Shown: positions 19,480-46,255 of the stretch, one piece after another
Position numbering within the stretch: the first letter of the stretch is position 1
Layout of the letters: each line of letters begins with the position of its first letter
Assembly: GCA_020532085.1 (NCBI GenBank)
Contig: JAJBAV010000008.1
Coordinates: 1 to 64,000 of the forward strand
DNA: 64,000 nt
From: Candidatus Cloacimonadota bacterium
Lineage (GTDB): Bacteria > Cloacimonadota > Cloacimonadia > Cloacimonadales > Cloacimonadaceae
Reading direction: 5' to 3'
Program-made: the position numbers and the translations under genes
Notes under the pieces: model-generated
The model's input: only the letters and a program-made list of their open reading frames with translations
Database searches by the model: none
What the model was told of the DNA's origin: nothing

Positions 19480-22400
19480 TCAGTCGCGCAGCGCCACAAC
19501 TTTATAGAAGGCCCGGGAGAGGCCGCGGGTGTCGGTGTAGCCGGGCGTGGTGATGGCCGTGGGGGTGAGCAGGGTGAAGGCGCCGTAGGGGTCGGAGGCG
19601 CTCCAGACCTGGTAGGCGGTGGCGTTGGAGACCGGCGGCCAGCTGAGCACGGCGTTGCCGCCGATTCTGCTGATGCTCAGCGCGGGGGTGTCCAGGCTGA
19701 GGCTGATCCCGGTGCCGTTCACGGGGATCTGGAGGTTGGCCTCGCCGGAGGCGTTGCTGTTGATCACCAGATTGCCGGGATAGTCCTGCGCGGCGGTGGG
19801 TGTGAAGGCGAGGGTGAAGGCGGAGGCCGTGCCGGCGGGGATGGAGAAGTTCAGGGTGTTGCGCTGGGCCGCCTCCCGCTCCCGGCCGCCCGGCCTGGCT
19901 TCGCCGGAGGCCTTCCGCGCCGCCGCTTCGCCCACCGTGTAGCCGGTGGGGGCGGTGATGCTGCCGGAGAGGAGGGCATCGCCGCTGTTGGTGATGCTGA
20001 ACTGCTGCACGCTGCCGGAGCCCAGCTCCACCTCGCCGAAGTCCAGGCTGAGGGGGTCCACCGCGATCTCCGGGCCGGTCTGGAAGGGAAGCAGGGCCAG
20101 CTTCAGGTTGGGGCGGTTGGGGCTGGTGTAGGTGCCGGAGAAGACGTTGGTCTGGTCGCTGTAGTCATCCCTCGCGCAGCGGTAGCCGCTGGCAACGGAG
20201 CTGTAGCGCACCGTGCCGGACTGGGTCCATTCCTCGGTGAGGTTGAAGGCGGTGTCCACCACGATGTTCTGGCTGCCGTTCCAGAGGAAGGGGGTTTGGA
20301 AGGTGAGCATGTCCCAGCCTCCGGCGGTGGGCAGGTAGTTGTCCGCGCTGAAGACGGTCACCATGTCCGTGGCGCCCTGCCAGTTGGCCACGTTGGCGTC
20401 GGTGGTGTGTTTGAGGCGGATGCGGAAATCCGGCAGGACATAGTCCGGCGGGGTGTTCACCCAGAAGGCCAGGCCGGTGATGTAGAGGGGTCCGGAAACG
20501 CCCTGGGCGTTCAGCTCGGCGGCGGTATAGACCGACTGGCCGTGGAGGCTCTTGTAGGTGATGTTGATGGGGCAGGCCGTGCTGATGCCGGTGCTCGAGG
20601 TCCCGTCGCCCAGCACCACCTCGGAGATGAGGTTGGGGGTGGCGCTCACGGTGTTCGAGGGGGCGGATTCCCCGGCGGGACCGCTGTAGAGGGTGGTAAC
20701 GTAATAGTTGTAGGTAACGCCATTGGTGAGGCCGGCATCCTGGAAGGTGGTGGCGGCCACGGTGGTGAGGGGGCTGCCGTCGCGGTAGATGCGGTAGCCG
20801 CTGATGTCGCGGCCCGGGTTGGCGGCGAAGGCGGAGCGGGCTCCGCGTCCTTCAGCGGCGGTCCAGCTGAGGTCCACCACGGTGTTGCCGGGCAGGGCGG
20901 CCAGAGCGGTGGGGGGATACGTATTGGGGGTGGCGGAGGCGGTGGCGGTGGGATCGGAATCCCCTTCGGGATAGGACGCCACCACATAGTAGTTGTAAGT
21001 GGTTCCGTCGTTGACTGAGTAGTCCGTGTGGGAGAGATCGGTCACCGAGGTCAGCAAGGCGGAATCGCGGAAGATCTTGTAGCCGGAGGGTGTCCCGTAA
21101 AGCGGCGCGGTCCAGTTGAGCAGCACCAGGCCGTGGCTGGCGGCAGCGCTGAGGTTTTCGGCTGGATAATGGACGCTGGGGTTGGTGGAGGCGGGGAAAA
21201 CGATGTCGTCGATCCAGGCACAGTCGGAGCCGCTGGTCATGGCGTAATCCTTGCTGTACACCCATTTCAGCACCCTGGTGCCGGTGGCCAGGGTGTAAGT
21301 GGCTTGGGTCCAGTCCACTTCTCCGGACCAGCTGCCCTGTTGGACTCCGTCCACATAGAACTTCAGAAAGTCGTAGTTGGATTCTGACGAAACCTTGTAC
21401 CAGAAGGACAGCTGGCCTGAAGCCGGGAGCACCCTGGTGACCTCCAGCGAAGTGAGGGATGAGTTCCCTATCGTTCCGCTCCGGGCGGAGTTGGCGCCGG
21501 CGTGGAAGGTGGAGCTGTCGATCACCCAGGGATTGGCGCCCTGCACCCAGGGCAGGGAATTGAAGTTTCCGGTTTCGAAAGTTTCCATGATGATGCCCAC
21601 CACCGCGTACTCCGTGCGGCTGAGGCTGATGCTTCCGGCAGAGGCGGCGAAGGCCAGCTCCACGATGGTGCCGAGGGCTGTGGCCGGGCTGGCCGAGATG
21701 GTGAAGCTGAGGCTGGCCATCCCGTCCGGGCCGATGGGACCGAAACTGTCCGTTCCGCCCAGGATGGAAATTCCGGGGGTGGAACTGGCCAGAGTGGCAG
21801 ATCCGGCCTCGGAGGCCACCTCCCCGGAGTTCAGGAGCGGGATGGAGACGGCCACGGTTTCCCCGGGGTCCAGCACGCCGTCGCCATCGCCGCCGGGATC
21901 GCTGATGAGGTAAGAGCCGAATTGCAGTTCGGGGGCGTACACGCGCAGGGGGAGGTTGTAGCTCCAGGTGCCGCTGTCGGCTGTGACATCGAGGGTGAAA
22001 ACGAGGTCGTGGGCCGGAGGGCAGTTGGCCGCCACCTGGATGGCAAAGTTGGTGTGGGGATAAGCCACATCCTGTGCCAAAACGGTGCCGTAAGCGGCGC
22101 TGGCGGCGGTCACGCTCACATGGGGATCGGCGCTGCTGAGCAGGGCTGAAACGTTGGTGGCGTCCACCAAGCCGCGGTTTCTGAGGCTGATGGGCAGCAG
22201 GGCGGATTCCCCCGCCTCCAGATGCCCGTTGGCATTTGTGTCATTGATCTCCACTTGGTTGATGGACAGATAGGCGCTGTCCGGCAAGATGGGACGGGTG
22301 GTGATGAAGAGGGCGCTCTCGTCGGTCAGCGGGGCGGCGGCGGTGGGATAGGAGTTGCCGAAGGTGTATTCCAGGCCGATGGTCTCCGTGTGGTCCTCGA

Positions 22401-25400
22401 TGCCTATGGTGCAGTAATTGGCGTGAGGCCAGTGGTCTTCGGAATTTCCTGTGTCGATATTGTTGAAGTCCTTGTACTGGAGCTTGATCTGGCCGTCGCC
22501 GGTGTGGGTGGGGTAATAGGTGGGGTCGTAGAGGATGGCCTGGAAGGTCTCCGGCGAAATGCTGTCGTAGCCAGAATAGAGGCCGTGCCACTGGACCACG
22601 TAGTAGTTCAGGGCGCTGTTGTACCAGGTGTAGACAGCGCTGCCGGTGCCAAGCTCCAGGTCATCCCAGAAGACGGCGAGCATGGGGTGGGCGCCGCCGG
22701 GTCCGGGCAGGCGCAGGTTGCGCCAGTCGGAGTTCTGGGTGGCGCCAAAGGCGATGAAGCCGTTTGAGGAGATGGAGGCCTGGCTGTAATCCACGCCGTA
22801 ATATTTGAAGGTGAAGGGCAGGTTGACGGTCTGGATGGAGACAGCGCCGTTCTGGTCGCCTTCATCGCCGGCATTGCCGGGATCGGTGAGGTTGAGGGCG
22901 GTGCCGCTGCCTCCTTCCGCGGGGGCGATGCCGATCCAGTCGTAAACGGGGCACTGGTCGTAGCTGGTGTCTCCCATGTCGAAGATGAAATAGCCATAGG
23001 CGTCCTGGCCCAGGGGATCGGTGACCGCGGTCTGGCCGAGGGTGAAGCTGAGGGGGATGCTCTGGGTGAAGCCGTCAGCGAAGAGGTCCAGCTGCAGGGG
23101 GATCACCATGCCGTCCAGGCTGGTGCTTCTGGCGTGGATGCTGAAGGTGTTGGCAGAGTTGGCTACACTGGAGCCGCTGGCAAGGCTGCCCCAGGCGCCC
23201 TGGGCATCGGTGACTTCAAAGAAGCTGTCCAGGGAAGTGAGGGTGCCCTGAACTCCGGTGAGGGGGGCACTGCCGCTGTTTTTCAGGGTGAGGGTGAGAG
23301 GCCAGCTGTCGCCGGGATTTACCAGGTTGCCGGGTGAGCCCACAAAAGCGTGGGAAAGGATCTCAAGGTGGCCGCTGGAGACTGTCACGGGTATTGATAT
23401 TTGCCACTCGGCGTGACTGAAGCCCAGGTTAAAGCTGTGTTGGTCCGGGCAACCGCTATCAATCTGCAGCTCCACTCCGGAACTGAGGGCTGAGGAATTT
23501 GGCAAGATGGGGTCAAACTCCACCCGGTCATCGATAAGCGTCACATAAGGATCGGATTCAGTTGCCACTCCCGAGGGAGTAATGGTTGACGAACTGGAGT
23601 TCCTCAATGCGAAATAGAGCAACAAGGTTTCGCCTGGGTTGGCTTCTTCATCACCGTTGCCACCGTTGCTGTCATCGATCACGATCCCGTCCAGAAGCAA
23701 GCCGCCGGTGGAGGCGATGGATACGCTCTGGATGAAGGGCTTGAAGTCGTTTTGGCTAACGGTGAGCTGCAGGCTGCCGGAAAGGTTGGCGGCAAAGGCC
23801 AGGTAGGCGAGGCCAGAGGCGTCGCTGAAAGCCAGGGCGGCCTGCTGCCCGGAGCTGTCGGTGAGCGCCACGGTCGCGCCCTCCACCGGCTGGTCCGCGG
23901 CGTCTTTGACCACCACAGCCATGCTGGTGGTGCCGGCGGGGATGCCGGCGGGGGCGGATACGTTGAAGGTGGACGGAATGCCCACGTAGACAGGGGCGGT
24001 GGGATCGCCGATGAGGTTGCAGTAGGCAGCGAAATTGTAAGTTTGGTCCGGGTTGCTGATGCCATAGATGGCGTTAAGGTACAATTTGCTGTAGTGCAGG
24101 GCGGAACTCATGTCCCTCATGCCCAGGTTGTACAAAGCGTGGAAAATGCCCACGTTCAGCGTGTTGTTTTGGGGGGTGGCCGTGGAAGAGGTTGCCATGC
24201 CGATGGCGGTGATGGCGCCTGTGTATTGGATATCAGTGCCCAGCCTTACCACCGCTTCGGTGGCGGAGGTTCCGCCGAAATCACCGGTGGCGCAGGTGAT
24301 GAGGACCGCGTGGAAGAGCTTGCCGTAATTGACCAGGCTGGAGCTTGGCGACCATCCGCTCATCCCGATGTAGCCGCGATAGTTGAAAAAAGACACCCCC
24401 TGGTTGATTTCGCTGTTCATGGAGCTGGGGGAAGGCGAGTCCCCGTATATCTCCTCATAAGTGTAAGCGGGATTCACCCGGGAGGAAATCTCCTTGATGT
24501 ACTGGTTGGTGTAGACAGTGGAGATCCCGGAGGGGGAGGTATCGCCCACCAGGAGCATGTTGTTCAGCCAATCGCCCGTACCGGCATACACTTCCCTCTC
24601 GTAAAACATCAGCTTGGCCATGTATTTGGTCATCTGATCGGTATCCGCCACGGAGATGCGGCCGATGGACACATCGCCAAGGTTGTCCCCGCCGGCCAGC
24701 CAGGTGTAGTAATAATCCGTGTAGGAGCCGTAGGTGGGCACGGATATTGTTCCGGAGGCATCGCCGATGAGGACAATGTAGTCCGGCCGGGTCTCCGGGT
24801 TGTCGTAGCGGGTCTGAATGTAGGCCTTGATGGCGGAGTTGCTGGTTCCGGTGGTGGCGGTGCTGGCGGCCTCCACCAGGTAGCCTTTCTGGCGTTTCCA
24901 GGCCACGTATTCGTCCACCTTGCCCTGATATTCGGCATTCACGTAGTTGCCGTAGATCACCAGCAGGCGGGGGGAATGGTAGTCGGCATTTCTGCCCGCC
25001 GCCTGGTCGTAGTTGAGGATGAGGCCGCGGTAGATCTTCTCGAAGGCCGGGGACAGGCTGGGGGCTGGAATCGTCTCGTTGACGGAGGGGCCATTATCGA
25101 AATCGAGGTTGAGGGTCAGGTGGTCCCGCACCAGCAGTTCACCCGTGGCGCTGTCCCACTGGAAGGGATGGACGTTGAGGCTCACCACGCGGAAGTCGCG
25201 CAGCACCTGGGGGGCGGAGATGAGGGCGGGCGCGGCCGGATAGAGGGTTTCCGGATGGCGGCCGCTTTGGCGTTCCGCGGCCAGGGCGGCGGCGAAATCG
25301 GGCTGGAGGCCGGAGCGGCTTGCGGCAGCAGCGCCGGAAACGCGCAGGCTCACTCCGCCGCGGGCGGGGATGGCCACCATGGCGCTGAAGACCGGCAGGG

Positions 25401-25641
25401 TCTCCTCTTCGCCGATGAAGAGCTTGGGAATGCCGTCCAGGCGGACGCGGGCGTAACTGGCGCCGTCGCGTTCCACGGCCTCCAGTTCCCAGGCGGGAAG
25501 CTGGAAGTTGATCTGGATGCCGTCGCCGCTGTCGCGGGTGACGGTGAAAGCTGATCCGCCGGGCAGGCTTTGGCCGGCCAAAAACAGGGGTGTCAGCAGG
25601 AGCATGGCCAGCAGGGGCCAGGCGCAGATGGTTTTCCTCAT
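19480..25641 (-). CDS. Gingipain-like (C25) giant secreted protein, catalytic His not conserved
   Basis: 2053 residues from ATG 25641 (AAAGGA upstream, signal peptide ending ...LLLTPLFLAGQ). A propeptide-like region (30-200) precedes the C25 domain (about 224-600): PRLLVIYGNYV, DYIVLIGDASG and GDVSIGRI. The catalytic Cys region is LITCATGDFGG (C450), but the expected His site (Y-x-G-H-G) reads FFNYRGYIGMSGW (418-430), with no His. After it come an invasin/CarboxypepD-like domain (about 605-690), Ig-like repeats, a second beta domain with DTSYDQCPVYDWIG, a jelly-roll, two Fn3 domains, one LHGQSVYTAAEL module, a 'choice-of-anchor D' Ig-like unit and a C-terminal Fn3 ending FYKVVALRD. It may be an inactive or altered peptidase acting as an adhesin. 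Terminators follow. Confidence 0.82.
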   Translation of the reverse strand: MRKTICAWPLLAMLLLTPLFLAGQSLPGGSAFTVTRDSGDGIQINFQLPAWELEAVERDGASYARVRLDGIPKLFIGEEETLPVFSAMVAIPARGGVSLRVSGAAAASRSGLQPDFAAALAAERQSGRHPETLYPAAPALISAPQVLRDFRVVSLNVHPFQWDSATGELLVRDHLTLNLDFDNGPSVNETIPAPSLSPAFEKIYRGLILNYDQAAGRNADYHSPRLLVIYGNYVNAEYQGKVDEYVAWKRQKGYLVEAASTATTGTSNSAIKAYIQTRYDNPETRPDYIVLIGDASGTISVPTYGSYTDYYYTWLAGGDNLGDVSIGRISVADTDQMTKYMAKLMFYEREVYAGTGDWLNNMLLVGDTSPSGISTVYTNQYIKEISSRVNPAYTYEEIYGDSPSPSSMNSEINQGVSFFNYRGYIGMSGWSPSSSLVNYGKLFHAVLITCATGDFGGTSATEAVVRLGTDIQYTGAITAIGMATSSTATPQNNTLNVGIFHALYNLGMRDMSSALHYSKLYLNAIYGISNPDQTYNFAAYCNLIGDPTAPVYVGIPSTFNVSAPAGIPAGTTSMAVVVKDAADQPVEGATVALTDSSGQQAALAFSDASGLAYLAFAANLSGSLQLTVSQNDFKPFIQSVSIASTGGLLLDGIVIDDSNGGNGDEEANPGETLLLYFALRNSSSSTITPSGVATESDPYVTLIDDRVEFDPILPNSSALSSGVELQIDSGCPDQHSFNLGFSHAEWQISIPVTVSSGHLEILSHAFVGSPGNLVNPGDSWPLTLTLKNSGSAPLTGVQGTLTSLDSFFEVTDAQGAWGSLASGSSVANSANTFSIHARSTSLDGMVIPLQLDLFADGFTQSIPLSFTLGQTAVTDPLGQDAYGYFIFDMGDTSYDQCPVYDWIGIAPAEGGSGTALNLTDPGNAGDEGDQNGAVSIQTVNLPFTFKYYGVDYSQASISSNGFIAFGATQNSDWRNLRLPGPGGAHPMLAVFWDDLELGTGSAVYTWYNSALNYYVVQWHGLYSGYDSISPETFQAILYDPTYYPTHTGDGQIKLQYKDFNNIDTGNSEDHWPHANYCTIGIEDHTETIGLEYTFGNSYPTAAAPLTDESALFITTRPILPDSAYLSINQVEINDTNANGHLEAGESALLPISLRNRGLVDATNVSALLSSADPHVSVTAASAAYGTVLAQDVAYPHTNFAIQVAANCPPAHDLVFTLDVTADSGTWSYNLPLRVYAPELQFGSYLISDPGGDGDGVLDPGETVAVSIPLLNSGEVASEAGSATLASSTPGISILGGTDSFGPIGPDGMASLSFTISASPATALGTIVELAFAASAGSISLSRTEYAVVGIIMETFETGNFNSLPWVQGANPWVIDSSTFHAGANSARSGTIGNSSLTSLEVTRVLPASGQLSFWYKVSSESNYDFLKFYVDGVQQGSWSGEVDWTQATYTLATGTRVLKWVYSKDYAMTSGSDCAWIDDIVFPASTNPSVHYPAENLSAAASHGLVLLNWTAPLYGTPSGYKIFRDSALLTSVTDLSHTDYSVNDGTTYNYYVVASYPEGDSDPTATASATPNTYPPTALAALPGNTVVDLSWTAAEGRGARSAFAANPGRDISGYRIYRDGSPLTTVAATTFQDAGLTNGVTYNYYVTTLYSGPAGESAPSNTVSATPNLISEVVLGDGTSSTGISTACPINITYKSLHGQSVYTAAELNAQGVSGPLYITGLAFWVNTPPDYVLPDFRIRLKHTTDANVANWQGATDMVTVFSADNYLPTAGGWDMLTFQTPFLWNGSQNIVVDTAFNLTEEWTQSGTVRYSSVASGYRCARDDYSDQTNVFSGTYTSPNRPNLKLALLPFQTGPEIAVDPLSLDFGEVELGSGSVQQFSITNSGDALLSGSITAPTGYTVGEAAARKASGEARPGGREREAAQRNTLNFSIPAGTASAFTLAFTPTAAQDYPGNLVINSNASGEANLQIPVNGTGISLSLDTPALSISRIGGNAVLSWPPVSNATAYQVWSASDPYGAFTLLTPTAITTPGYTDTRGLSRAFYKVVALRD

Positions 25642-25740
25642 GATCGATCCTTTGGAGTGAGAATGTATGATTGGATCGTTAATAATGCAATTCCCGGTGC
25701 AAAAGTTACAATTTCCTTTGTTCAACCTTTCCAGACAGGA

Positions 25741-25777
25741 AAAAAATCCCGGCCCATTCACCAGGGAACAGGCCGGG
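25741..25777 (-). terminator. Intrinsic terminator of the first subtilase gene
   Basis: Stem CCCGGCC (25748-25754) pairs with GGCCGGG (25771-25777) around a 16-base loop. On the minus strand it is followed by ATTTTTTT. It lies 19 bases after the subtilase stop. Confidence 0.8.
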
Positions 25778-25795
25778 CAGTTGATTCAGATCTTG

Positions 25796-31555
<5,760 letters not shown>

Positions 31556-31818
31556 GTTTTTCTCTCTTCGCCCCTTGGAGGGCTATGATGTATTCAAATA
31601 TCTGTTCACCTCCGCTGTAACCCGCGCGTTGTCCGCAGGGAGCGGCCTGAACGAAAACTGGTCGAAAATTTACTTCTCCCGGCTTTGAAAATCATGGGCG
31701 GGGATTTGTCAACCATTTTTTGCCAGTTCGATTTTTCCATTAAAGCCATTGCCTTCAAACACTTAAACCTGGCCAGCATTTGTTTGACAGGGGCAAACTT
31801 TGCTTAGGGTTAAAAGAC
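31556..31818 (-). other. Spacer between the two subtilase genes, possible minus-strand promoter
   Basis: No gene seen. On the minus strand a perfect TTGACA (plus-strand TGTCAA at 31707-31712) lies about 150 bases upstream of the 31555 start, but the -10 region is poor. The spacer is AT-richer than the genes. Confidence 0.3.
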
Positions 31819-31852
31819 TGGCCCCGCCAATCCTCGGAGGACAGCGGGGCCA
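31819..31852 (-). terminator. Intrinsic terminator of the second subtilase gene
   Basis: Stem TGGCCCCGC (31819-31827) pairs with GCGGGGCCA (31844-31852). The minus-strand tail is GTCTTTTAAC, a weak U-tract. It lies 18 bases after the stop. Confidence 0.7.
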
Positions 31853-31870
31853 GATATCGGAGTTGTTTGT

Positions 31871-34800
31871 TTATTGCTTGGCGGGAAGGTCCTCAAAAGC
31901 CGCCACGACCTTGTAGAAGGCCATGGGCAGGGCTTCGGTGTCCTCCCAGCTGGTGACGCCATATACTGTGGCGAAGGGCTCGTAATCGCCGTAGGGATCG
32001 GTGGCGCGGTAGATGTGGTAGCGGTTGGCATTGGTGACCGCGTCCCAGGAAACGGTGACGCCGCCAGCGCTTTTGCTGACCGCGATGTCCGGGATGGCGA
32101 GGTAACTCAGGATCACCCTCACCTCCACCGAGGCGTAGCCAATGGCATAGCCGTCGTCCACCACGAAGTTAAGGGTCTCGCTGCCGAACCAGTCGGCAGG
32201 CGCGGAGAAGGTGACCTGATGTCCGTCGATGGCGGCCTGGATGTAGGCGCTCTCACCCACGGTGAGGGTCACCGTGTGGCCGTCCAGGTCCTCGATGTAG
32301 GGGCCGAAATCCACCACCAAGTTGTCGTTCATGTCGAACTCGAATCCTTCCACAGGCAGGGTCAGGGTGGGGGCGTTGTTGGTGACGGTGAGGCTCACGG
32401 TTACGTAAACCTCGGGATTTTCCGGATCGTTTGAGGCCACCTTGATGGTGGTCTGGTATTCACCGGGGGCGAGGCCGGTGGCGTTGAAGCTGGCCACCAC
32501 TTCCTGGGAAGCGTTTTCCAGCAACGTTCCGGAGGGCGGGAACCAGCTCAGCCAGTCCGCCTGGGGGGATTCCGAAAGGATGAACTCGAGGTCCAGGCTG
32601 CCGGAATTGCCGATGGTGAAGCTGAGATTTTCCCCGCCGTTCACGGGCAGGGTGGCGGCCAGGCTGGTGGGATCCACGCTGATGCTGGGATCGGTGTACC
32701 CGCTGCCGCTGAGGGCGATGTTCACCGTGGGCTCATCCGCGTCGTTGCTGGAGATCACCACATTGCCAGGATAGACCTGCGCGGCGCTGGGAACGAAGCT
32801 GAGGTCGTAAGTGAGGGTCTGTCCCGCCGCGACGTTCAGAGTAATGGTGTTGCGCGTGTCCGCGAGGGCGGAACCGAGCATCGGCGCGCTCTTGCCGGTG
32901 GGGGCGGCGGATCTTGAGGCATTGCTACTTTTGGCTACGTGCAGGGCCACGCCGTAGCCGGCGGGAGTGCTGATGGTGCCGGTCAGAGCGGCTGTGCCGG
33001 TGTTTTGCACGGTGAACTGCAGCACGCTGGCCTGCCCGACCTCAACCGCGCCGAAATCCAGGGCCAGGGGTGAAACCACGATCTCCGGGGCCTCGGTCTC
33101 TTCCACCTCCAGGACCAGCTGGAGGTTGGGCCGGTTGGCGGTGTTGGTGCCACCGGTGAAGACTTCGGTCTGGTCGCTGTAGTCATTCCGAACGAAGCGA
33201 TAGCCGTTGGTAATGGAGGTGTATTGCGTGGTGCCGGATGAGGTGTAAGAGCCGACGAGCCCGAAGGCGGTGTCCACAACGATGTTGTCGGTGCCGTTCC
33301 AGGTGAAGGGGGTGGCCAGAGTCAGCATGTTCCAGCCGGTGGCGGTGGGCTGGTAGGATGCGGCAGTCCAGACGGTGCTGAGCCCGGTTGAGATCCAGCT
33401 GGAAGCGTCTGTGGCACTGGTGTGGCCCATGCGGATGAGGTAGTTGGGCATGGTCAGGCTGGGCAGGCCGGTCACGTTGAAGCCGATCTCGAGGATGTCG
33501 ATGGGCCCGAACACGCCTTTGGCATTGAGTTCGGCGGCTGTGTAAACCGCCTGTCCGTGCAGGCTCTGATACCAGACGTTGATGGGGCAACCGTCTGAGG
33601 TCCCGCTGCTGGAAGTGCCGTCGCCGATGATCACAGAGGTCACGAGGTCGGGCGTGGCCTGGACCGTGGCGGTGGGCTCGGCGTCTTCACCGGAGTAGGT
33701 GGCCACCACATAGTAGGAGTAGGTGGTTCCGTTCACCACGGCGTTGTCGGTGTATGAGAGTCCCGGCACAGTGGTGAGCAGGCTGCCGTTCCGGTGGATC
33801 TTGTAGCCGCTGGGGGTCCCGCTGAGGGGAGCGGTCCAGTTCAGCTCCACAAATCCGTTTCCGCCGGCCGCGGTGAGATCACGCGCGGGATAGAGAAGCC
33901 CCTGGGGCAGGTAGGCCTGCAGTTTCAGGTTGGGCAGGTTGGTGGAGGCCGTCAGGGATGTGGGCTGGGCGTCGTCGTTGCGGTTTTGGCGGGCCTGGTT
34001 GCCGGTTGTGGAGGTGTAGGTCCAGAAAGGATAGCCGCTGATCCAATCCTGGAAACCCTTGACGGTGAGGATGGCCAGGTTGGAAGTTCCGTCGTAGGCG
34101 AAGAGGTTGTTAAGCTCCACCTCCATCCAGCCTGAGGTCGCCGTATTCGGGAAGGTTCCGCTGTAAACCAGGGTGTAGCCGTCCGTGCTGTAAGCGCCGC
34201 TGGTCAGGGTGGAAGCGGTGGTCTGCTTCATGTAGATGCTCACCGCCTCGATGGGGTTCACATCAGCGCCGCTGGCCTTGTAGAAGCCCAGGGACTTGAT
34301 GGTGCAGACGCTGCCGATCTGCGAGGCCAGGTAGATCGCTTCGTGGCCAGAGTAATTGTAATAACGGTCGATGGGGTAGGTCTGGGATCCGGTGCCTTCA
34401 CCGATGATGATGGTGGAGAGGGGGTTGGCGGTGGGAAAGCCTGTCACGGCGTTCGAGGGATCGGATTCCTCAGAGCCGTAGATGGCCGTCACATAATACT
34501 CATAGTTGGTGTTGTTCACCACGTTGGTATCCGAGTAAGTGAGGCCGCCGGTGCTGGCCAGATAGCTGCCATCGCGGTATACCTTGTAGTTGGAGGGAGT
34601 TCCAGAGGCCGGAGCGTCCCAGGCCAGGTTCACGTATCCGTTGCCGGAAGCTGCGGTCAGGTTGCGCGGCGGGGCATAGTAGGTCCCCATGGGCGGGAAG
34701 ATGATGTGGTCCAGCCAGGCGCAGTCGCTGCCATTGGCCACAGAACTGTCTTTGGAATAGGTCCAGGCAAAGGTATGGTTGCCTGAGGTGACCGGATAAG

Positions 34801-36916
34801 AAGCTTCCGACCAGCCCGCGGAACCGGACCATGATCCTTGTTGCACCTCATCGATGTAGAAGCGCAGGAAGTCGTAATTGCTTTCGGAGGAAACTTTGTA
34901 CCAGAAGCTGATGTTCCCCGCGGAGCTGACCACCACAGGCAGGCTGAGGGTGGTGCTGCTGTTGTCGTTAATGTCGCCGGACTCGGCGGCGTAGGTGCCG
35001 GAAAAGACTTCCGAACTCTGCACGGTCCAGGGTACCGAGCTGTTGTTCACCCAGGGATACAAAGTGAAGTCGCCGGTCTCAAAACCCTCATCCGGAGGGG
35101 CCAGCAGGTTTACCGTGATGCTGCGGGTGGCGGTGTTGCTATCGTCATCGGTGGCGATCACCTTGATGCTGTGGGCGCCGCCGGCGTATCCGGCCGTGTT
35201 CCAAACCCAGGAATAGGGGCTGGAGGTGTCGGTACTTTTCAGCACGTCATCGATGTAGAAAGCCACGCCGGTGATGTAGCCGTCGGTGTCGGAGGCGGTG
35301 GCGGTGATGGTGATCACGCTGTTGAGGTCATGCACCGAACCACCGGCCGGGGAAGTGATGGAGACCGAAGGAAGGGTGGGATCGGTTGCCAGTAAAGCCT
35401 GGTAGGCATTGATGCGTCCGCTGCCCAGTTGGCCGATGTAGCTTTGGTTCACCGCGTAATGATCGTCAGCGCTGGATTCGAGGATATCCTCCACGTCCGC
35501 GCTGCTGAGGGTGCGGCCGTTGCGGTGGGCAAAGGAAACCACCAAAGCTGCCACGCCGGAAGCGTGGGGACAGGCCATCGAAGTGCCTTGGTAGAAGCCG
35601 TAGCTGCTGTTGCTCCAGCAACTGAGCACGCCTTCCTCAGTAACGCTGTTGGTCTCGCCACCGGGGGCGGAGACGTCCACCCAGGTGTCGTAGTTCGAAT
35701 ACCAAGCCTTGGTGTCTTCGTGCGTGGTGCCGGCCACGGCGAAAACGCCGCTGTAGCAGCCGGGATACCACTGGCCGCTGGATTCGCCGTTTCCCGCGGC
35801 GTAGATGGTGATCCCGTTGGACATCACGCTGCCGCCGCCGTTGGCGTTGAAATAGTCGATGGCGTCAAGCACTGACTGCTCGTAGCTTCCCACGCTGGTG
35901 TAGCCCCAGCTGTTCTGGGAAATGCAGGCGCCGTTGTCGGCGGCATAGACCGGGGCGTTTTCAAAGCCGCCGCCGCCGGAAGAGGGAGCAAAAACCTGGG
36001 TGCTCATCAGCCGCACACCGTTGCCGGTGCCGGAACCGCCGGCCACGCCGGAGATGCCCACGCCATTGTTGTTCACGCCAGCCACGGTTCCCGACACGTG
36101 GCAGCCGTGATCGCCGGCCACGATGGTGCTGGTGCTTTCATAAAAATTGTAGCCGTAAACGTCGTCCACATAGCCGTTGCCGTCATCGTCAATGCTGTTG
36201 CCGGCAATTTCGCCGGGATTGATCCACATATTCGCGGCCAGGTCCGGATGGTTGTACTGCACGCCTTGGTCCTGGATGCAGACCACCACGTCGGTGTGGC
36301 CTTTTTCGATGTCCCAGGCTTCGGGGAGGTCGATGTCGGCATCAACCGTTCCGCCGGTCTGGCCGGTGTTGTGGTAGTGCCACTGCTCGCCGTAGCGCGG
36401 GTCGTTCGGGGTCCAGCGGCTCAGGTCTTCCGCGATGGCGGCCACTTCGTCCTGGTTCACGCTGAGCAGGGTTTTCTTGTATTCGGGCTCGGCCCACTGG
36501 ACGTCTTTGGCCAGATCCCGGTAGGCCATCACGATCTCGCGGATGTCCGCGGCGCTGTCATATTCCAGCTCGAACCAGAGATGCAGGCCCCATTCCACGT
36601 GGCGCCAGCCCCATTTGAGGTTTTTGCTCACGTCGCCGAAGACGGGGCTGATCTTTTTCACCCCGTACTGGAGGTTGAGGGCGTCCAGTTCTTCGAGGCC
36701 GAAGCTGGCCAGGGCGCCGTCCTGATATCGAAAACCTTGGGCCAGCGCGGAATTGGCCTCGCTGAGCTTGATCCTGATGTGGCCTTGTTCCATGGCGCTG
36801 TCAGGAACCTGAAAGATGTCGATGAAGGGCCGTTCGCCAAAGCTGGGCGCGGCCGCCAGACCGAGCGTGCCAAAGATGACAAGCAGCAGGGTCAGCAATG
36901 TTTTCAATCTGGGCAT
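31871..36916 (-). CDS. Giant secreted subtilisin-like (S8) protease, paralogue
   Basis: 1681 residues from ATG 36916, which has AAGGAG upstream and starts signal peptide MPRLKTLLTLLLVIFGTLGLA; an in-frame ATG at 36955 is less likely. The triad is complete: D216 (VCIQDQGVQ), H270 (GDHGCHVSGT), S446 (YQGTSMACPH). After the protease come an Ig-like domain (VSITSPAGGSVHDL), a jelly-roll domain, Fn3 domains, a diverged and a typical LHGQSVYTAAEL module and a 'choice-of-anchor D' pair. One cadherin-like unit and a C-terminal Fn3-like domain ending FYKVVAAFEDLPAKQ complete it. It shares N-terminal and C-terminal regions with the neighbouring subtilase, a tandem duplication that has since changed its middle. 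Confidence 0.9.
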   Translation of the reverse strand: MPRLKTLLTLLLVIFGTLGLAAAPSFGERPFIDIFQVPDSAMEQGHIRIKLSEANSALAQGFRYQDGALASFGLEELDALNLQYGVKKISPVFGDVSKNLKWGWRHVEWGLHLWFELEYDSAADIREIVMAYRDLAKDVQWAEPEYKKTLLSVNQDEVAAIAEDLSRWTPNDPRYGEQWHYHNTGQTGGTVDADIDLPEAWDIEKGHTDVVVCIQDQGVQYNHPDLAANMWINPGEIAGNSIDDDGNGYVDDVYGYNFYESTSTIVAGDHGCHVSGTVAGVNNNGVGISGVAGGSGTGNGVRLMSTQVFAPSSGGGGFENAPVYAADNGACISQNSWGYTSVGSYEQSVLDAIDYFNANGGGSVMSNGITIYAAGNGESSGQWYPGCYSGVFAVAGTTHEDTKAWYSNYDTWVDVSAPGGETNSVTEEGVLSCWSNSSYGFYQGTSMACPHASGVAALVVSFAHRNGRTLSSADVEDILESSADDHYAVNQSYIGQLGSGRINAYQALLATDPTLPSVSITSPAGGSVHDLNSVITITATASDTDGYITGVAFYIDDVLKSTDTSSPYSWVWNTAGYAGGAHSIKVIATDDDSNTATRSITVNLLAPPDEGFETGDFTLYPWVNNSSVPWTVQSSEVFSGTYAAESGDINDNSSTTLSLPVVVSSAGNISFWYKVSSESNYDFLRFYIDEVQQGSWSGSAGWSEASYPVTSGNHTFAWTYSKDSSVANGSDCAWLDHIIFPPMGTYYAPPRNLTAASGNGYVNLAWDAPASGTPSNYKVYRDGSYLASTGGLTYSDTNVVNNTNYEYYVTAIYGSEESDPSNAVTGFPTANPLSTIIIGEGTGSQTYPIDRYYNYSGHEAIYLASQIGSVCTIKSLGFYKASGADVNPIEAVSIYMKQTTASTLTSGAYSTDGYTLVYSGTFPNTATSGWMEVELNNLFAYDGTSNLAILTVKGFQDWISGYPFWTYTSTTGNQARQNRNDDAQPTSLTASTNLPNLKLQAYLPQGLLYPARDLTAAGGNGFVELNWTAPLSGTPSGYKIHRNGSLLTTVPGLSYTDNAVVNGTTYSYYVVATYSGEDAEPTATVQATPDLVTSVIIGDGTSSSGTSDGCPINVWYQSLHGQAVYTAAELNAKGVFGPIDILEIGFNVTGLPSLTMPNYLIRMGHTSATDASSWISTGLSTVWTAASYQPTATGWNMLTLATPFTWNGTDNIVVDTAFGLVGSYTSSGTTQYTSITNGYRFVRNDYSDQTEVFTGGTNTANRPNLQLVLEVEETEAPEIVVSPLALDFGAVEVGQASVLQFTVQNTGTAALTGTISTPAGYGVALHVAKSSNASRSAAPTGKSAPMLGSALADTRNTITLNVAAGQTLTYDLSFVPSAAQVYPGNVVISSNDADEPTVNIALSGSGYTDPSISVDPTSLAATLPVNGGENLSFTIGNSGSLDLEFILSESPQADWLSWFPPSGTLLENASQEVVASFNATGLAPGEYQTTIKVASNDPENPEVYVTVSLTVTNNAPTLTLPVEGFEFDMNDNLVVDFGPYIEDLDGHTVTLTVGESAYIQAAIDGHQVTFSAPADWFGSETLNFVVDDGYAIGYASVEVRVILSYLAIPDIAVSKSAGGVTVSWDAVTNANRYHIYRATDPYGDYEPFATVYGVTSWEDTEALPMAFYKVVAAFEDLPAKQ

Positions 36917-37100
36917 TGTTTTTCTCCTTGTGAGAACGCAGGGTTGCTGTAACATTTTCTGATTTTTGCCTGTGAACGTTCACCGTGGCGCTGGGCGAAC
37001 GGGGCGGAAAAACTTCGGAGTATCGTCCTTTCCCATTCTGACCGGGAAGATCTCAGACGTTTTTGGAGAAGCGTGGGGAACACAATATTTTGTCAATCAA

Positions 37101-40754: not shown

Positions 40755-40802
40755 AAAAAAGAGATGCGGGCCTCCGGGTGTTCCGGATATCCCGCATCTC
40801 TA
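40755..40802 (-). terminator. Intrinsic terminator of the polA-PPDK-like-GAPDH operon
   Basis: Stem GAGATGCGGG (40761-40770) pairs with CCCGCATCTC (40791-40800) and is followed on the minus strand by six T. It lies about 20 bases beyond the GAPDH stop and directly abuts the nested-palindrome element. Confidence 0.88.
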
Positions 40803-40820
40803 TATCAGCCGATCTGCCGA

Positions 40821-42074
40821 TCAGGGTGTGCTGGCTTCGATGTAGTTCACCAAACGGGAGAGGGAGTTGGTGTAGGATCCGAGTTCGTTGTCGTACCAGC
40901 CGAAGATCTTGGCGTGGGTGACGGGCATGGTGACTTCGCGGCCGGCTTCCACTCCCAGGGCGGCAAGGGTCTGGCGGGGAACAGGGATGAAGCTGGTGCG
41001 GGTGTGGGTTTCGTGGGCCTCAAGGGTGGCGGCGGCCATGGAACCGATGAGGTCGGCGGAGACGTTCTGGCGTTCGGAATAGACCAGCAAGCCCTTTTGC
41101 GGTCCTTCCGCGGCCTGTTTGTAGATCTCGTTGATGAGGCGGCGGCTCACCAAAGGCTGGCCAAGTTCGTTAAGTTCGGTGTGGAAAGTCACATTGAGGT
41201 TGATAAGCGAAACCGTGGAGGTGGGGATGCGCACGGAATCGGCCATGAAGCCCACGGATTTGATCTGCGGCATCACCAGTTCCAAGGCTTTGGCTGCGCC
41301 GGTGGTGGAAAGGATGATGTTGTTGAGCACGCTGCGGGTTTTGCGCAGGTCGGTGGCGCCGGCCTTGGGCACGGAATCCAGGATGCTCTGGGTGTTGGTG
41401 GCGGCGTGGATGGTGCTCATGGAGGCGGTCATGATGTTGGCCGTGGCCTCGTTTTCCAGCAGGGGCTTTATCAGGTGGGCGAGGCCGGTGGTGGTGCAGC
41501 TGGCGGCCGAGATCACGTGGTGCTGGGCGGGTTTGTAATTCAGATGGTTGATGCCGTAGATCATGGTGAGGGCGTCAGGGGAGTTGGTGACGCCGGCGGT
41601 TTTGCTCTTGAAGGGGGCGGAGCAGACCACTTTGAGGGCGCCTGCTTCCAAATGCCCGCGCAGACAAGGTTTTCCCTGTTCGGGAGTGGCGTTTGGATCC
41701 ACAAAATTGCCGGTGCAGTCCACCACGATGCGCACGCCTTCGTTCAACCAGTTGATGTCCTTGGGGTCGCGGGCGCTGCGGAGGACCTTCACGGGAATGC
41801 CTTCGATGGAGATCAGAGGCTTGTCCGGATCCAGCACCTGGATCTCGGCGCGGCGTCCGACCATGCCGAAAAGGAATTTATGGATGTTGCCGTAGGTGGA
41901 GTCGGTCTCCATCACCTGGATGAGGTCGTCCAGGGTTTTGCCCACTTCGCGGCCGCAATTTACGATGATCCCGTCGAAATGGCGGAGGTTGATCTGATTC
42001 CAGAGCAGCAGCTTGCCGATCCGGCCCAGCCCGTTGATCCCGAGCAGTTTTTTGTTTCTCAGGTCGAGGTTCAT
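40821..42074 (-). CDS. Atypical glyceraldehyde-3-phosphate dehydrogenase
   Basis: 417 residues, about 80 longer than ordinary GAPDH (about 335). The NAD loop is GINGLGRIGK and the catalytic Cys is C193 in AASCTTTGLAH. Canonical enzymes read SCTTNCLAP, so the conserved Asn is Thr here. The catalytic His is H223 (TIHAATNTQ), and STGAAKALELV is kept. Extra length comes from insertions in the NAD domain and a longer C-terminus. AAGGAG precedes ATG 42074. It lies 35 bases after the PPDK-like gene and before a strong terminator. Glycolytic G3P oxidation is the likely reaction; a GAPDH-like variant with another aldehyde substrate is possible. Confidence 0.82.
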   Translation of the reverse strand: MNLDLRNKKLLGINGLGRIGKLLLWNQINLRHFDGIIVNCGREVGKTLDDLIQVMETDSTYGNIHKFLFGMVGRRAEIQVLDPDKPLISIEGIPVKVLRSARDPKDINWLNEGVRIVVDCTGNFVDPNATPEQGKPCLRGHLEAGALKVVCSAPFKSKTAGVTNSPDALTMIYGINHLNYKPAQHHVISAASCTTTGLAHLIKPLLENEATANIMTASMSTIHAATNTQSILDSVPKAGATDLRKTRSVLNNIILSTTGAAKALELVMPQIKSVGFMADSVRIPTSTVSLINLNVTFHTELNELGQPLVSRRLINEIYKQAAEGPQKGLLVYSERQNVSADLIGSMAAATLEAHETHTRTSFIPVPRQTLAALGVEAGREVTMPVTHAKIFGWYDNELGSYTNSLSRLVNYIEASTP

Positions 42075-42109
42075 GCGATACTCCTTGTCTGTGTATTTTT
42101 TAAAATTGC

Positions 42110-45100
42110 TTAGCTGCGAATGGTTTCCACCGGATAGTGGCCCAGGAAGATGGCGCCGCTGCTGGCGTCGATGGCGATCTCATCTCCCGGCTGGAGCAGG
42201 GTTTCGCCGATGCGGCAGTGGTTTTCGTCTTCGAACACCTTGAGCTGGCGGCAGTTGACGATGCCCACCAGGCCGAGGCGGATGGCTGTGACCGCGGCGT
42301 GGGAAGTGACGCCGCCGCGCGAGGTGAGCAGGCCCTGGCAGTCGAAGAGCAGTTCCATATCCTCAGGAACGGTATCCGGCCGCACCAGGATCAGCGGCTG
42401 GCCGCGGTTCTTGAGGGCGTCGATGTTGGCGCGGGAAATGGCGATGAGGCCGTTGATGACGCCTTTGCCGATGCCGATGCCGTTGCCGAGGGGTTTCAGA
42501 TCGCGCTTGGGCACATTGAAAACCGTGTAGGCGCGGGCTTTGGTGATCACCTGGTTGCGGGTTTGGAGAATGAAAAGCTGTTCACGGGAGGGGCCTTCGA
42601 AGGTGAATTCCATCTCCTGATGGGGGTAGTCGCGCTCGTCCAAAAGCTGGCGGGCCAGGCTGAGCAGACGGGTGTAGATCTGGGGAAAGTCTTTTTCCAG
42701 AGAGAGTTCCAGCCTTTGTTTGGACTGCTTGCGCTCCTGTTCGGAGATGGGCAGGGTATGCACCAGGCCGGCCACGACGTCCTCGCCCTGGCTGCAGAGG
42801 GTGAAATCGCCGTTGAGGGTGATCCCCGGCGCCTTGCTCCAGGGCGCGTGGGTGAAGAGCACTCCGGTGCCGCTGTCCAGGCTGATGTTGCCCAGCACCA
42901 TTTTCTGGATGGTGACGGCGGTGCCCCAGTCGTCGGCGATCTGCAGTTTCTGGCGATAGAGCCGGGCCCGGTCCGTATTCCAGGAATCCAGCACGTGGAG
43001 AATGGCCTGTTTCACCTGCAGGAAGACGTCCTGCTCCAGCTTAAGCTTGTGCCTGGCCAGCACCTTTTTATAGGCTTCAGACATCTGCCGCATCTGCAGA
43101 GGGGTGAACTGGGTTTTGAGCTTCACCTTGTGGCGGCGCTTGAAGGCGATCATCACGGCGTCGAATTCGTCGCGGTCGATGCCGTAGGCCATGCCCCAGC
43201 TTTGGATGAGGCGGCGGTAGCAATCCCAGGCTGTCCAGCCGTAATTGGGGCGGGCGCTGAGTTTGAGGGTTACCTCGTCGTTGAGGCCGATATTGAGGAA
43301 GGTGGTCATGGCGCCGGGCAGGCTCATGGGCGCGCCGGAACGCACGGAAAAGAGCAGCGGGGACTCCGGATCGCCGTAGCGGAGGCCGGTCTGGCCTTCG
43401 AGGCGGGCGATGTTGAAGCGGAGCAGTTCATCCATCTCGCGTTCGATGCCGGGATGTGAGCGCACGATCTGGCTGAAGCGATGCAGTTCGGTGGTGATCA
43501 CAAAACCGGGCGGAATGGGGAATTCGTATTGGCGCATCTTCTTGAGGAAGAAGGCTTTGGAACCCAGCAGCACCTGGTTGTCGAGCCGGCCGAAACTGGT
43601 TTGCAGCGGAATGAACATCAGGTCCGGATCGTAGCTCATCACGCGGCTGAGTTCGGCGGAACCGAAGACCTGTTTCATGGCCGCGAGCGAGACCAGGATC
43701 TGGGCGATGAAATTGTCCATCGGCTGCACCAGGAATGAAGTGGCCAGCAGCTTGCGGAAAAACTCCTCGGCGAACATCTGCTGGGCGGTCTGGCGCTTGT
43801 ATTTGCCGGCCACGCCCTTCACCGGGGCGTGTTCGAGTTCCTGCTCGTAAAAGCGGTAGAAGTATTCGTTGATCAGCTCGGTGATGCTGTCCTTGATCTG
43901 TTTGAAGAGGTCCAGATACTGGTCCAGCGAGAGGTTCACGATCCTCTGGCCGGATTTGAGCATCTCCAGGGCGCTGGAAAAAGCCTCGCTGGTGAGGCCT
44001 TCGCGGGCGAGGCCGAGTTCGAAGAGCTCGAGGATGCGAATGATGCGCTTGAGGGTTTTTGCCGTGATGTAGTCCAGGTTCAGCTGCCTGATGTTCTGCT
44101 CCACGAGGCGTTCCACCAGGTTCTCCAGGCGGAAGATCATGCCCATGGCCTCCAGCTTCGGTTCGCGGTATTGCCCATACATGGAGGGAATGCCGGCCGC
44201 GATGTGGCGTTTGTAGTAGATGTTTTCCCAAGCCTGGGTGGGATTGGGGTCCAGGATCACCTGGTTGAGGCGGCCAATGTAGTCCAGCATCTGGCGGATG
44301 CCGCTGTCGAAATCCTTGCGGGCCAGGCTTTGGCGCAGGCGCAGCTGCTCCTTTTCGTCGAACCAGTTGAAGCGGCCCAGGAATTTGGCGATATCGTAGG
44401 GATCGAGCTGATATTTGTCCAGCAGCATGTAGTAGATGCGCACCAGCAATTCAAGGCGGCGGAGGGAAAAGTCCTCCTTTTTCACCTGGCGGAACAGCGG
44501 CGCCACCACCTGCCAGGATTGGCCCAGCAGGTCGTCGGCCCCGGTCGCGTTGTCTTTGAAGAATTTCCGCACCGTCTTTTGCTGGGCTTTAGTGCGTTCG
44601 TCCGGGCTCTGGATGAAGAGGGCCACGTCATCCGGCAGCAGGCCCTGCAGGTGACCGGGATCGAGGTCGGTCCAGTAGTTGAGGATCTGGCGAAGGAGGT
44701 TGATATGGGTGTTGTTGCTTTCGGTGTGCACCTGTTTGCGCACGAAATGGATGAGGCGATCCTTGCGGGAGCTCATTTCGTCGATCTCGGTGCTGAGGTC
44801 GCGGATCTCGCCCTCGGCGCCGATCTCGTGGTAGAAGACCGGGAAGAGCCGCAGCAGATGTTTGGTCTGCACATACAGCGGTTTGACGTTGCTGTTCAGA
44901 AACTGGGAAACGTCCTTTTGGAAGAGGTCGGTGTCCGAAATGAAGATGCCGCCTTGGGTGAGGTTGATGATCAGCGCCGCCAGGAGGTCCTTGCAGAGGA
45001 TGGGATCGAGGCTGATCAGCTCCAGCCAGGCGCGGATGTTCTTGATGTGGTTTTTGTTGGCCACGATCTGCCAGTCCTGGTTGATCTTGATCTCGCCGGG

Positions 45101-46177
45101 CGGGATGAAGCCGAGGTCGATGATCTTGCTCAGGCAGCGGCGCGCGAGTTCCGGCTCGGCAGGATCCAGCACGGCTTTGCCGATGGTGAGCACGCAGTCC
45201 AGCACGATGCTGCTGTGCTGGTCGCGGAATTCGGCCAGGTTGTCGAAGATGCTGTCGATCAGCAGGTTGAGCTCTTTCACGGAGAGAGATTCGTGCAGGT
45301 CCGCCAGCAGGCGGTTGAGGTCCCAGAGCAGGTGGTCGCTGAGGGCGTTCATCGGGGGCAAACTCAAGAGGTAGAAAAGGTAATGGATCTTTTCCGGCAG
45401 GCCGGTGAAGGAGGCCAGCAGGTCGCGGTGGCGGGTGGCAATATCCGAGTAGGAAGGTATGGCGGCGAAATCCTGCAGGGTTTGGGCGGTTTGAAGCTGT
45501 TTGAGGCAGCCCGTGAAGAATTTTCCGCCCACGGCCTGTTCCAGCCTGGCTTTGTCCAATGTAACCAGATCGTCGTATTTGTCGTGCCACGCGGCGATGG
45601 CAGCCTTGGCCCGCCAGAGTTTGATGGAGGCTTCGTAGATGCCGCGCAGCAGGGCCACGGCCTCGTCCTGACGGCGCAGGCGTTCCGAAAGCTTCAGCAG
45701 GGTCTTGAAACACTGTCCGGAAGCGGCGATAAAGAGTTCCGGGGCCTGTCCGTGCAAATCCTCCAGAAGGTCGAAAGACTGGTCCAGAATGGTTTGCGGC
45801 ACCTTTTCCTGGTCGGCCAGGGCGGCGATGAAATCCAGATATTCGTTCAAGCAGCGCTGTCTTACGCGGTTTTCCTCCGCGCGGGCAAAGATGTTGCCGA
45901 AGATGCCCAGGATCAGTTCCAGGGCGTGTTCGCTTTCCTCCAGCTGCAGGTAGAACCAGAGGTCGCCCATGATGCTCTGGCGCATCAGTTCCAGGGCGGA
46001 ATCGAGGTTCGCGAAGGGATGGTGCAGCTCTTCCAGAAAGAGTTTGGTGCGCTGCTGAATGCCGAAGTAACTGGCGCTGCGTTCCAGCAGCCACAGGCTG
46101 TCCGGCGACAGCACGATCTGTTTTACCTGGGTCTGGGCAAGGTTGCTCGCCAGGGCCTGGGATTCGATCTTATCCAA
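42110..46177 (-). CDS. PPDK-like phosphotransferase without PEP-binding barrel, large N-terminal domain
   Basis: About 1355 residues. The C-terminal part is clearly PPDK-like: ATP-grasp start LLGSKAFFLKKM (about 867), LLFSVRSGAPMSLPGAMTTF (about 946) and QGEDVVAGL (about 1130). The phosphohistidine domain is RGGVTSHAAV with His1293. The protein ends right after that domain, so the PEP/pyruvate TIM barrel of PPDK is absent. The first 800 or so residues are helix-rich, without a family I recognise. The start is uncertain: GTG 46237 lacks a ribosome site and sits only about 12 bases after the likely transcription start, while TTG 46177 has GAGG upstream, so I chose it. By analogy with other dikinases it may autophosphorylate from ATP and pass the phosphate to an unknown acceptor. 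Confidence 0.8.
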   Translation of the reverse strand: MDKIESQALASNLAQTQVKQIVLSPDSLWLLERSASYFGIQQRTKLFLEELHHPFANLDSALELMRQSIMGDLWFYLQLEESEHALELILGIFGNIFARAEENRVRQRCLNEYLDFIAALADQEKVPQTILDQSFDLLEDLHGQAPELFIAASGQCFKTLLKLSERLRRQDEAVALLRGIYEASIKLWRAKAAIAAWHDKYDDLVTLDKARLEQAVGGKFFTGCLKQLQTAQTLQDFAAIPSYSDIATRHRDLLASFTGLPEKIHYLFYLLSLPPMNALSDHLLWDLNRLLADLHESLSVKELNLLIDSIFDNLAEFRDQHSSIVLDCVLTIGKAVLDPAEPELARRCLSKIIDLGFIPPGEIKINQDWQIVANKNHIKNIRAWLELISLDPILCKDLLAALIINLTQGGIFISDTDLFQKDVSQFLNSNVKPLYVQTKHLLRLFPVFYHEIGAEGEIRDLSTEIDEMSSRKDRLIHFVRKQVHTESNNTHINLLRQILNYWTDLDPGHLQGLLPDDVALFIQSPDERTKAQQKTVRKFFKDNATGADDLLGQSWQVVAPLFRQVKKEDFSLRRLELLVRIYYMLLDKYQLDPYDIAKFLGRFNWFDEKEQLRLRQSLARKDFDSGIRQMLDYIGRLNQVILDPNPTQAWENIYYKRHIAAGIPSMYGQYREPKLEAMGMIFRLENLVERLVEQNIRQLNLDYITAKTLKRIIRILELFELGLAREGLTSEAFSSALEMLKSGQRIVNLSLDQYLDLFKQIKDSITELINEYFYRFYEQELEHAPVKGVAGKYKRQTAQQMFAEEFFRKLLATSFLVQPMDNFIAQILVSLAAMKQVFGSAELSRVMSYDPDLMFIPLQTSFGRLDNQVLLGSKAFFLKKMRQYEFPIPPGFVITTELHRFSQIVRSHPGIEREMDELLRFNIARLEGQTGLRYGDPESPLLFSVRSGAPMSLPGAMTTFLNIGLNDEVTLKLSARPNYGWTAWDCYRRLIQSWGMAYGIDRDEFDAVMIAFKRRHKVKLKTQFTPLQMRQMSEAYKKVLARHKLKLEQDVFLQVKQAILHVLDSWNTDRARLYRQKLQIADDWGTAVTIQKMVLGNISLDSGTGVLFTHAPWSKAPGITLNGDFTLCSQGEDVVAGLVHTLPISEQERKQSKQRLELSLEKDFPQIYTRLLSLARQLLDERDYPHQEMEFTFEGPSREQLFILQTRNQVITKARAYTVFNVPKRDLKPLGNGIGIGKGVINGLIAISRANIDALKNRGQPLILVRPDTVPEDMELLFDCQGLLTSRGGVTSHAAVTAIRLGLVGIVNCRQLKVFEDENHCRIGETLLQPGDEIAIDASSGAIFLGHYPVETIRS

Positions 46178-46255
46178 TGATATCCTCGATCTGTAATTGA
46201 TCCGGGCGGACCGCCGTAGCCGGCAAATTGATTCCACATCCGCGCCGCCATCGGC

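Follow-up and report, generated by a model that had tools for sequence, protein, structure and literature searches.

What is phosphorylated by a dikinase that lacks the domain in which its relatives hold their acceptor? The question is raised by a gene in a 64,000-nucleotide stretch of DNA from a Candidatus Cloacimonadota bacterium (assembly GCA_020532085.1, contig JAJBAV010000008.1, positions 1 to 64,000), referred to here as the window. The gene, named dik (dikinase-like), lies at 42110..46177 on the minus strand and encodes a protein of 1355 amino acids (aa) with a C-terminal part of the pyruvate phosphate dikinase (PPDK) type and a long helical N-terminal solenoid. The best clue to its function is the gene directly downstream, gapX, which encodes a divergent homologue of glyceraldehyde-3-phosphate dehydrogenase (GAPDH); because the two are nearly always inherited together, they are probably parts of a step in sugar metabolism, or of a switch in it, that has not been described before. 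With a probability of roughly 0.4, dik is read here as a phosphotransferase that arose from PPDK; its solenoid would replace the phosphoenolpyruvate (PEP) barrel as the acceptor site, and it would work with gapX on a triose-phosphate metabolite.

Catalytic half and solenoid of dik

The C-terminal ~490 residues of dik comprise a PPDK-type ATP-grasp domain (residues ~866-1213, 42539..43582, minus strand) and a swivelling phosphohistidine domain (residues ~1229-1348, 42134..42493, minus strand), both placed by Pfam (PPDK_N 90 bits; PEP-utilizers/His domain 52.9 bits), by comparison with PPDK and by a structure model. The protein carries SVRSGAPMSLPG, QGEDVVAG and GGVTSHA, the last with His1293 within it, and its C-terminus lies a few residues past the match to the PPDK His domain. 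In 29 dik homologues the equivalents of PPDK K22, R92, E323, Q335 and H455 are invariant, those of R337 and T453 are found in 28 of the 29, and the position of D321 is occupied by glutamate in all. The model of residues 203-1355 superposes on PPDK (PDB 1kbl) with a root mean square deviation of 4.1 Å over 549 alignment columns (E 4e-24). No PEP-utilizers_C barrel (PF02896) was found by the Pfam scan of dik, and none was seen in its homologues, within Cloacimonadota or beyond. A PF02896 search of the genome revealed no free-standing barrel gene; the only matches were a complete canonical PPDK (906 aa) and a 575-aa open frame that corresponds in size to enzyme I of the phosphotransferase system. 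Another, unassigned PPDK_N family is present in the same genome as two tandem proteins of 980-990 aa with a response-regulator-like N-terminus (L150:1768-4710 and 4732-7698, minus strand; G000:C18).

The minus-strand frame is open from a GTG at 46237 or a TTG at 46177 down to the stop at 42110. The GTG would add 20 residues; since close homologues align from the TTG, which has a GAGG-type ribosome-binding site ahead of it, 42110-46177 is the likely gene. The ratio of nonsynonymous to synonymous substitution rates (dN/dS) is 0.10-0.19 for the two halves of dik taken whole, and the gene is clearly under purifying selection. The initial annotation had described this frame as a protein with PPDK-type ATP-grasp and phosphohistidine domains, intact motifs, no barrel, a chain ending straight after the His domain and a long helical N-terminus, and in all this it is confirmed. 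Two objections that it had named itself fall away: a frameshifted or truncated PPDK is ruled out by some 50 homologues, most of them intact with open frames of ~1350-1390 aa, and barrel-bearing relatives across the phylum were not seen among the Cloacimonadota homologues. The separate barrel gene for which it had proposed a search was, as said, not found in the genome.

The N-terminal part (residues 1-862, 43592..46177, minus strand) is predicted to be an all-helical alpha-solenoid (AlphaFold2, mean pLDDT, a per-residue confidence score, of 84) and belongs to no known family. Nothing was found by Pfam in the first ~880 residues of dik, and among its homologues there were only scattered weak matches; the best hit of a PDB sequence search with the solenoid was a designed helical repeat (E 0.77), and Foldseek returned only generic solenoids of the HEAT/armadillo type with TM-scores of at most 0.23. 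The structure prediction and fold search proposed in the initial annotation have thus borne out the helical nature of these ~860 residues and yielded no specific fold. Two stretches of the solenoid, at residues 451-490 (EIGAEGEIRD...HF.RK..H.ESNNT; 44708..44827, minus strand) and 651-674 (ENIYYKRHIAAGIPSMYG.Y.E.K; 44156..44227, minus strand), are invariant or nearly so in 20 sequences ranging from Cloacimonadota to Myxococcota, whose solenoids are 29-85% identical to that of dik. They are conserved to the same degree as the catalytic motifs, and their dN/dS of 0.014-0.033 and 0.015-0.035, respectively, compares with 0.10-0.19 for the whole halves. Lys, Arg, His, Glu and Asn abound in both motifs, many of them phosphate-binding residue types, and both contain loops of low confidence in the model; such loops are often those ordered by a ligand or partner. 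They are candidate ligand or acceptor loops and fit the suggestion of the initial annotation that the helical region binds an acceptor, which had been offered next to a regulatory role. In three homologues from the phylum Myxococcota (L129, L131 and L135, from genomes G862, G1084 and G1059) a hemerythrin (HHE) domain is added at the N-terminus, with matches of 29-49 bits, and this may add metal or oxygen sensing.

Co-inheritance of dik and gapX

gapX (417 aa; 40821..42074, minus strand) begins ~35 nucleotides past the dik stop and is preceded by AAGGAG. Neighbour clustering placed its family directly downstream of dik in 25 of 26 loci. The protein has both the N and C domains of GAPDH and matches PF02800 with 92 bits, while its score against the GAPDH-I model TIGR01534 (304.7 bits) is below the cut-off of 367.2; in the GAPDH tree it forms a clade of its own (support 100/97). 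It is ~80 residues longer than normal GAPDH, retaining the catalytic Cys (in SCTTT, canonically SCTTN), the catalytic His, the substrate-phosphate Arg of VRIPT and WYDNE. The NAD-binding loop reads VN.GR.VGK as against IND in canonical GAPDH, and the loss of its Asp suggests, from what is generally known of GAPDH, a preference for NADP. A plus-strand open reading frame at 40764-42113 (449 aa) was rejected as the neighbour of dik: it has no family match and overlaps gapX, and it is the minus-strand gapX that is conserved.

Homologues of dik were found in 50 of 125 Cloacimonadota genomes, and beyond the phylum in Delongbacteria, Ignavibacteria, Myxococcota and Planctomycetota. A search with a solenoid profile detected it in 3 of 13 Delongbacteria genomes, in 8 of 331 from the phylum of the Polyangiaceae homologue, in 3 of 343 from that of the Planctomycetota homologue and in 1 of 396 from that of the Ignavibacteria homologue. 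Among 41 genomes compared at the level of the order, gapX was present in 25/25 with dik and in 0/16 without it (Fisher p 1e-11); in the 125 Cloacimonadota genomes dik occurs in 50, gapX in 53 and both in 49 (p 8e-29). These p-values overstate independence as the genomes are related; nonetheless, the presence pattern is patchy within families. The sole dik without gapX (genome G022) is a decayed remnant with a big internal deletion (L147:2776-3462, G022:C38), which suggests that both genes were lost together there. Four genomes have gapX without dik: in three of them gapX is so close to a contig end that dik would fall off the contig, and the fourth (G1174) is 67% complete. At the loci outside Cloacimonadota with sufficient downstream sequence gapX adjoins dik, and a Polyangiaceae genome without gapX at this place carries it on a different contig. 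The pair is thus present in five phyla, and the trees of the two proteins agree (r = 0.95 over 29 pairs, matched by 0 of 2000 permutations). No other conserved neighbour was found across distant taxa, where only dik and gapX recur; polA upstream and phosphate-transport genes recur in near relatives only. The initial annotation, which had recommended looking for conserved neighbours, had overlooked the one downstream.

Further links to GAPDH are present on the other side of dik. In Cloacimonadota (G039, G026) and Delongbacteria (G044, G1117, G1121) a GAPDH paralogue of normal length is encoded directly upstream, with an overlap of ~4 nucleotides or a gap of 2-3, and these paralogues form one clade (100/100) apart from the housekeeping GAPDHs. 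That one dikinase should lie between two distinct GAPDH paralogues is difficult to account for unless the proteins share a reaction or a complex. In a genome of the Myxococcota phylum (G990) a degenerate GAPDH-like protein of 287 aa (23% identity, SCTGN; L134:10341-11204, minus strand) directly precedes dik and is perhaps a third partner of this type. Since an ordinary GAPDH was found in every relative searched, and PGK in 39 of 41, dik-gapX is an additional module. On a contig of a related bin, probably foreign to that bin (L151:1-14670, G004:C203), gapX has no dikinase beside it and lies amid glycolytic and glycogen genes, in a run with glycogen phosphorylase, GAPDH, PGK, TPI, PGI, PPDK, Kinase-PPPase and phosphoglucomutase. 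Elsewhere in the window, at 19480-36955 (minus strand), three giant peptidases with many immunoglobulin-like domains are encoded consecutively, one of family C25 (gingipain-type, 2093 aa) and two S8 subtilases (1919 and 1694 aa).

Possible roles of dik: phosphotransferase, controller or entry enzyme

If dik is a phosphotransferase, its ATP-grasp domain would phosphorylate His1293 with ATP, and inorganic phosphate (Pi) would probably be used too, because the equivalent of R337 is retained. The phosphohistidine domain would then swivel to a second site, in PPDK the C-terminal PEP barrel and in dik the N-terminal solenoid, presumably lined by the loops 451-490 and 651-674. This course from ATP over His1293 to a second site is proposed by analogy with PPDK and rifampicin phosphotransferase (RPH), and the exchange of the acceptor domain is plausible because RPH differs from PPDK in the same way (PMC4844700). 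The acceptor, or the donor in reverse, would be a phosphorylated C3 compound also handled by gapX, such as 3-phosphoglycerate or 1,3-bisphosphoglycerate. We infer the phosphotransfer itself, the solenoid acceptor site, the triose-phosphate metabolite and the direction of flux; the reading is favoured because the catalytic ATP and His residues are conserved and the dik model matches PPDK. The solenoid is proposed as the acceptor site on account of two loops under extreme constraint, with phosphate-binding residue types and low model confidence. The involvement of gapX is argued for by co-occurrence in 49 of 50 genomes, occurrence in five phyla, matching trees and the GAPDH catalytic residues kept. 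The second, upstream GAPDH in two phyla and gapX within a glycolytic run on one contig also speak for the reading.

Several points weigh against this reading. A carboxylate acceptor is not known from the PPDK-type superfamily, and alpha-solenoids are usually protein-binding scaffolds; moreover, with an ordinary GAPDH in every relative searched and PGK in almost every one, there is no obvious need for a bypass of the PGK kind. Among barrel-less proteins the nearest functional precedent is VadK, which appears to be regulatory (PMC13400623). It is with much reserve that a specific form of the reaction is suggested, in which dik would stand in for phosphoglycerate kinase (PGK) through the exchange 3-phosphoglycerate + ATP + Pi <-> 1,3-bisphosphoglycerate + AMP + pyrophosphate (PPi), acting through phosphohistidine and the solenoid site and coupled to a dedicated, perhaps NADP-linked GAPDH. 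This proposal is improbable; if true, several bacterial phyla would have a new route through lower glycolysis or gluconeogenesis.

The chief rival, less likely than the phosphotransferase but a serious one, is that dik is a regulatory histidine kinase like VadK, which would autophosphorylate at His1293 and dock gapX and any upstream GAPDH on its solenoid; phospho-dik would activate, inhibit or sequester the GAPDH, and no metabolite would be phosphorylated. VadK (Rv1127c), a barrel-less PPDK, phosphorylates itself at its His, and the methylcitrate enzymes with which it interacts are encoded beside it (PMC13400623); yet VadK is far shorter and has no solenoid. The scaffold role typical of solenoids would suit such a controller, a physical complex with gapX would agree with the strict pairing and the congruent trees, and the hemerythrin N-termini of some Myxococcota homologues lean slightly to sensing. 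On the other hand, the invariant solenoid loops resemble a ligand site more than a protein interface, and a regulator would need specificity for a divergent, additional GAPDH. Both the favoured and the regulatory reading predict phosphorylation of His1293 and coupling to gapX, and the present evidence fits either. It is doubtful, to about the same degree as the PGK alternative, that dik phosphorylates an unphosphorylated precursor (glyceraldehyde, glycerate or another short sugar) whose product is oxidised or reduced by gapX, which would make the pair a route into triose-phosphate metabolism and not a bypass. Dikinases of the superfamily, as is generally known of PPDK, RPH and GWD, phosphorylate hydroxyls or enols, GAPDH-type enzymes act on phosphorylated aldehydes and gapX has the GAPDH catalytic residues; however, no neighbour for transport, sugar oxidation or salvage recurs. 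There is very little to be said for dik as a spare ATP/His half from which the barrel of the canonical PPDK would receive phosphate: the catalytic domains of dik are ~35% identical to PPDK and the genome also encodes a complete PPDK, but that enzyme needs no helper and also occurs in genomes without dik, there is no free barrel gene, and the solenoid and gapX would be left unexplained.

If the favoured, catalytic reading holds, an uncharted AMP/PPi-linked step would be added to the central carbon metabolism of mostly uncultured bacteria; if the regulatory one does, dik would be a second dikinase turned controller of a metabolic enzyme. Owing to the near-strict pairing, either can be tested directly with two proteins.

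Comparison with known systems

The initial annotation was right about the loss of the barrel and the lack of a separate barrel gene, whereas its placement near glucan water dikinase (GWD) and RPH did not stand and the GAPDH partner was missed; among known kinds it is PPDK, and VadK as a derivative of PPDK without the barrel, that come nearest to dik. PPDK (TIGR01828; PDB 1kbl) shares with dik the order of ATP-grasp and His domain, the TSH motif and the nucleotide and Pi residues, but it has the C-terminal PEP/pyruvate barrel (PF02896) and no solenoid of ~860 residues ahead. dik reaches 340 bits against TIGR01828 (cut-off 843), and the dik and PPDK sequences compared form separate groups. In GWD and phosphoglucan water dikinase there are carbohydrate-binding modules and the His domain precedes the ATP-grasp; in dik the ATP-grasp precedes the His domain and no carbohydrate-binding Pfam match was found. 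RPH has its acceptor site in a domain of its own chain that is not a barrel, as is proposed for dik, and, like dik, a C-terminal His domain (PMC4844700); its order, however, is ATP-grasp, rifampicin-binding and His domain, whereas the helical domain of dik comes first and is unrelated, and dik scores 32 bits against the RPH family model (cut-off 999).

VadK of Mycobacterium tuberculosis is a protein of ~50 kDa with ATP-grasp and His domains and ATP- and Mg-dependent autophosphorylation at its His (PMC13400623). It resembles dik in these domains, in lacking the PEP barrel and in having its gene near metabolic enzymes tied to the protein, and differs in being short, without a solenoid, and in having methylcitrate enzymes and not GAPDH as partners. 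A Nonomuraea match taken as a possible VadK-like sequence proved to be a full PPDK. As for gapX, it shares with type I GAPDH (TIGR01534) both domains, the catalytic Cys and His and the WYDNE motif, and is set apart by its length (417 versus ~332 residues), insertions, SCTTT and the altered NAD-binding loop.

No paper on a PPDK-GAPDH pair or on the dik protein was found among the open-licence PMC papers searched, and in this literature the architecture, the GAPDH partner and the distribution are undescribed. By these tests dik is not PPDK, RPH, GWD or VadK; what is already familiar in it is the catalytic half. Several times in the PPDK-type dikinases a change of one domain has brought a change of acceptor, giving rise to drug inactivation, starch phosphorylation and regulation (VadK). 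The dik family would be another such case, with a change to a solenoid, and in at least five phyla it is tied to GAPDH, which catalyses the redox step of glycolysis.

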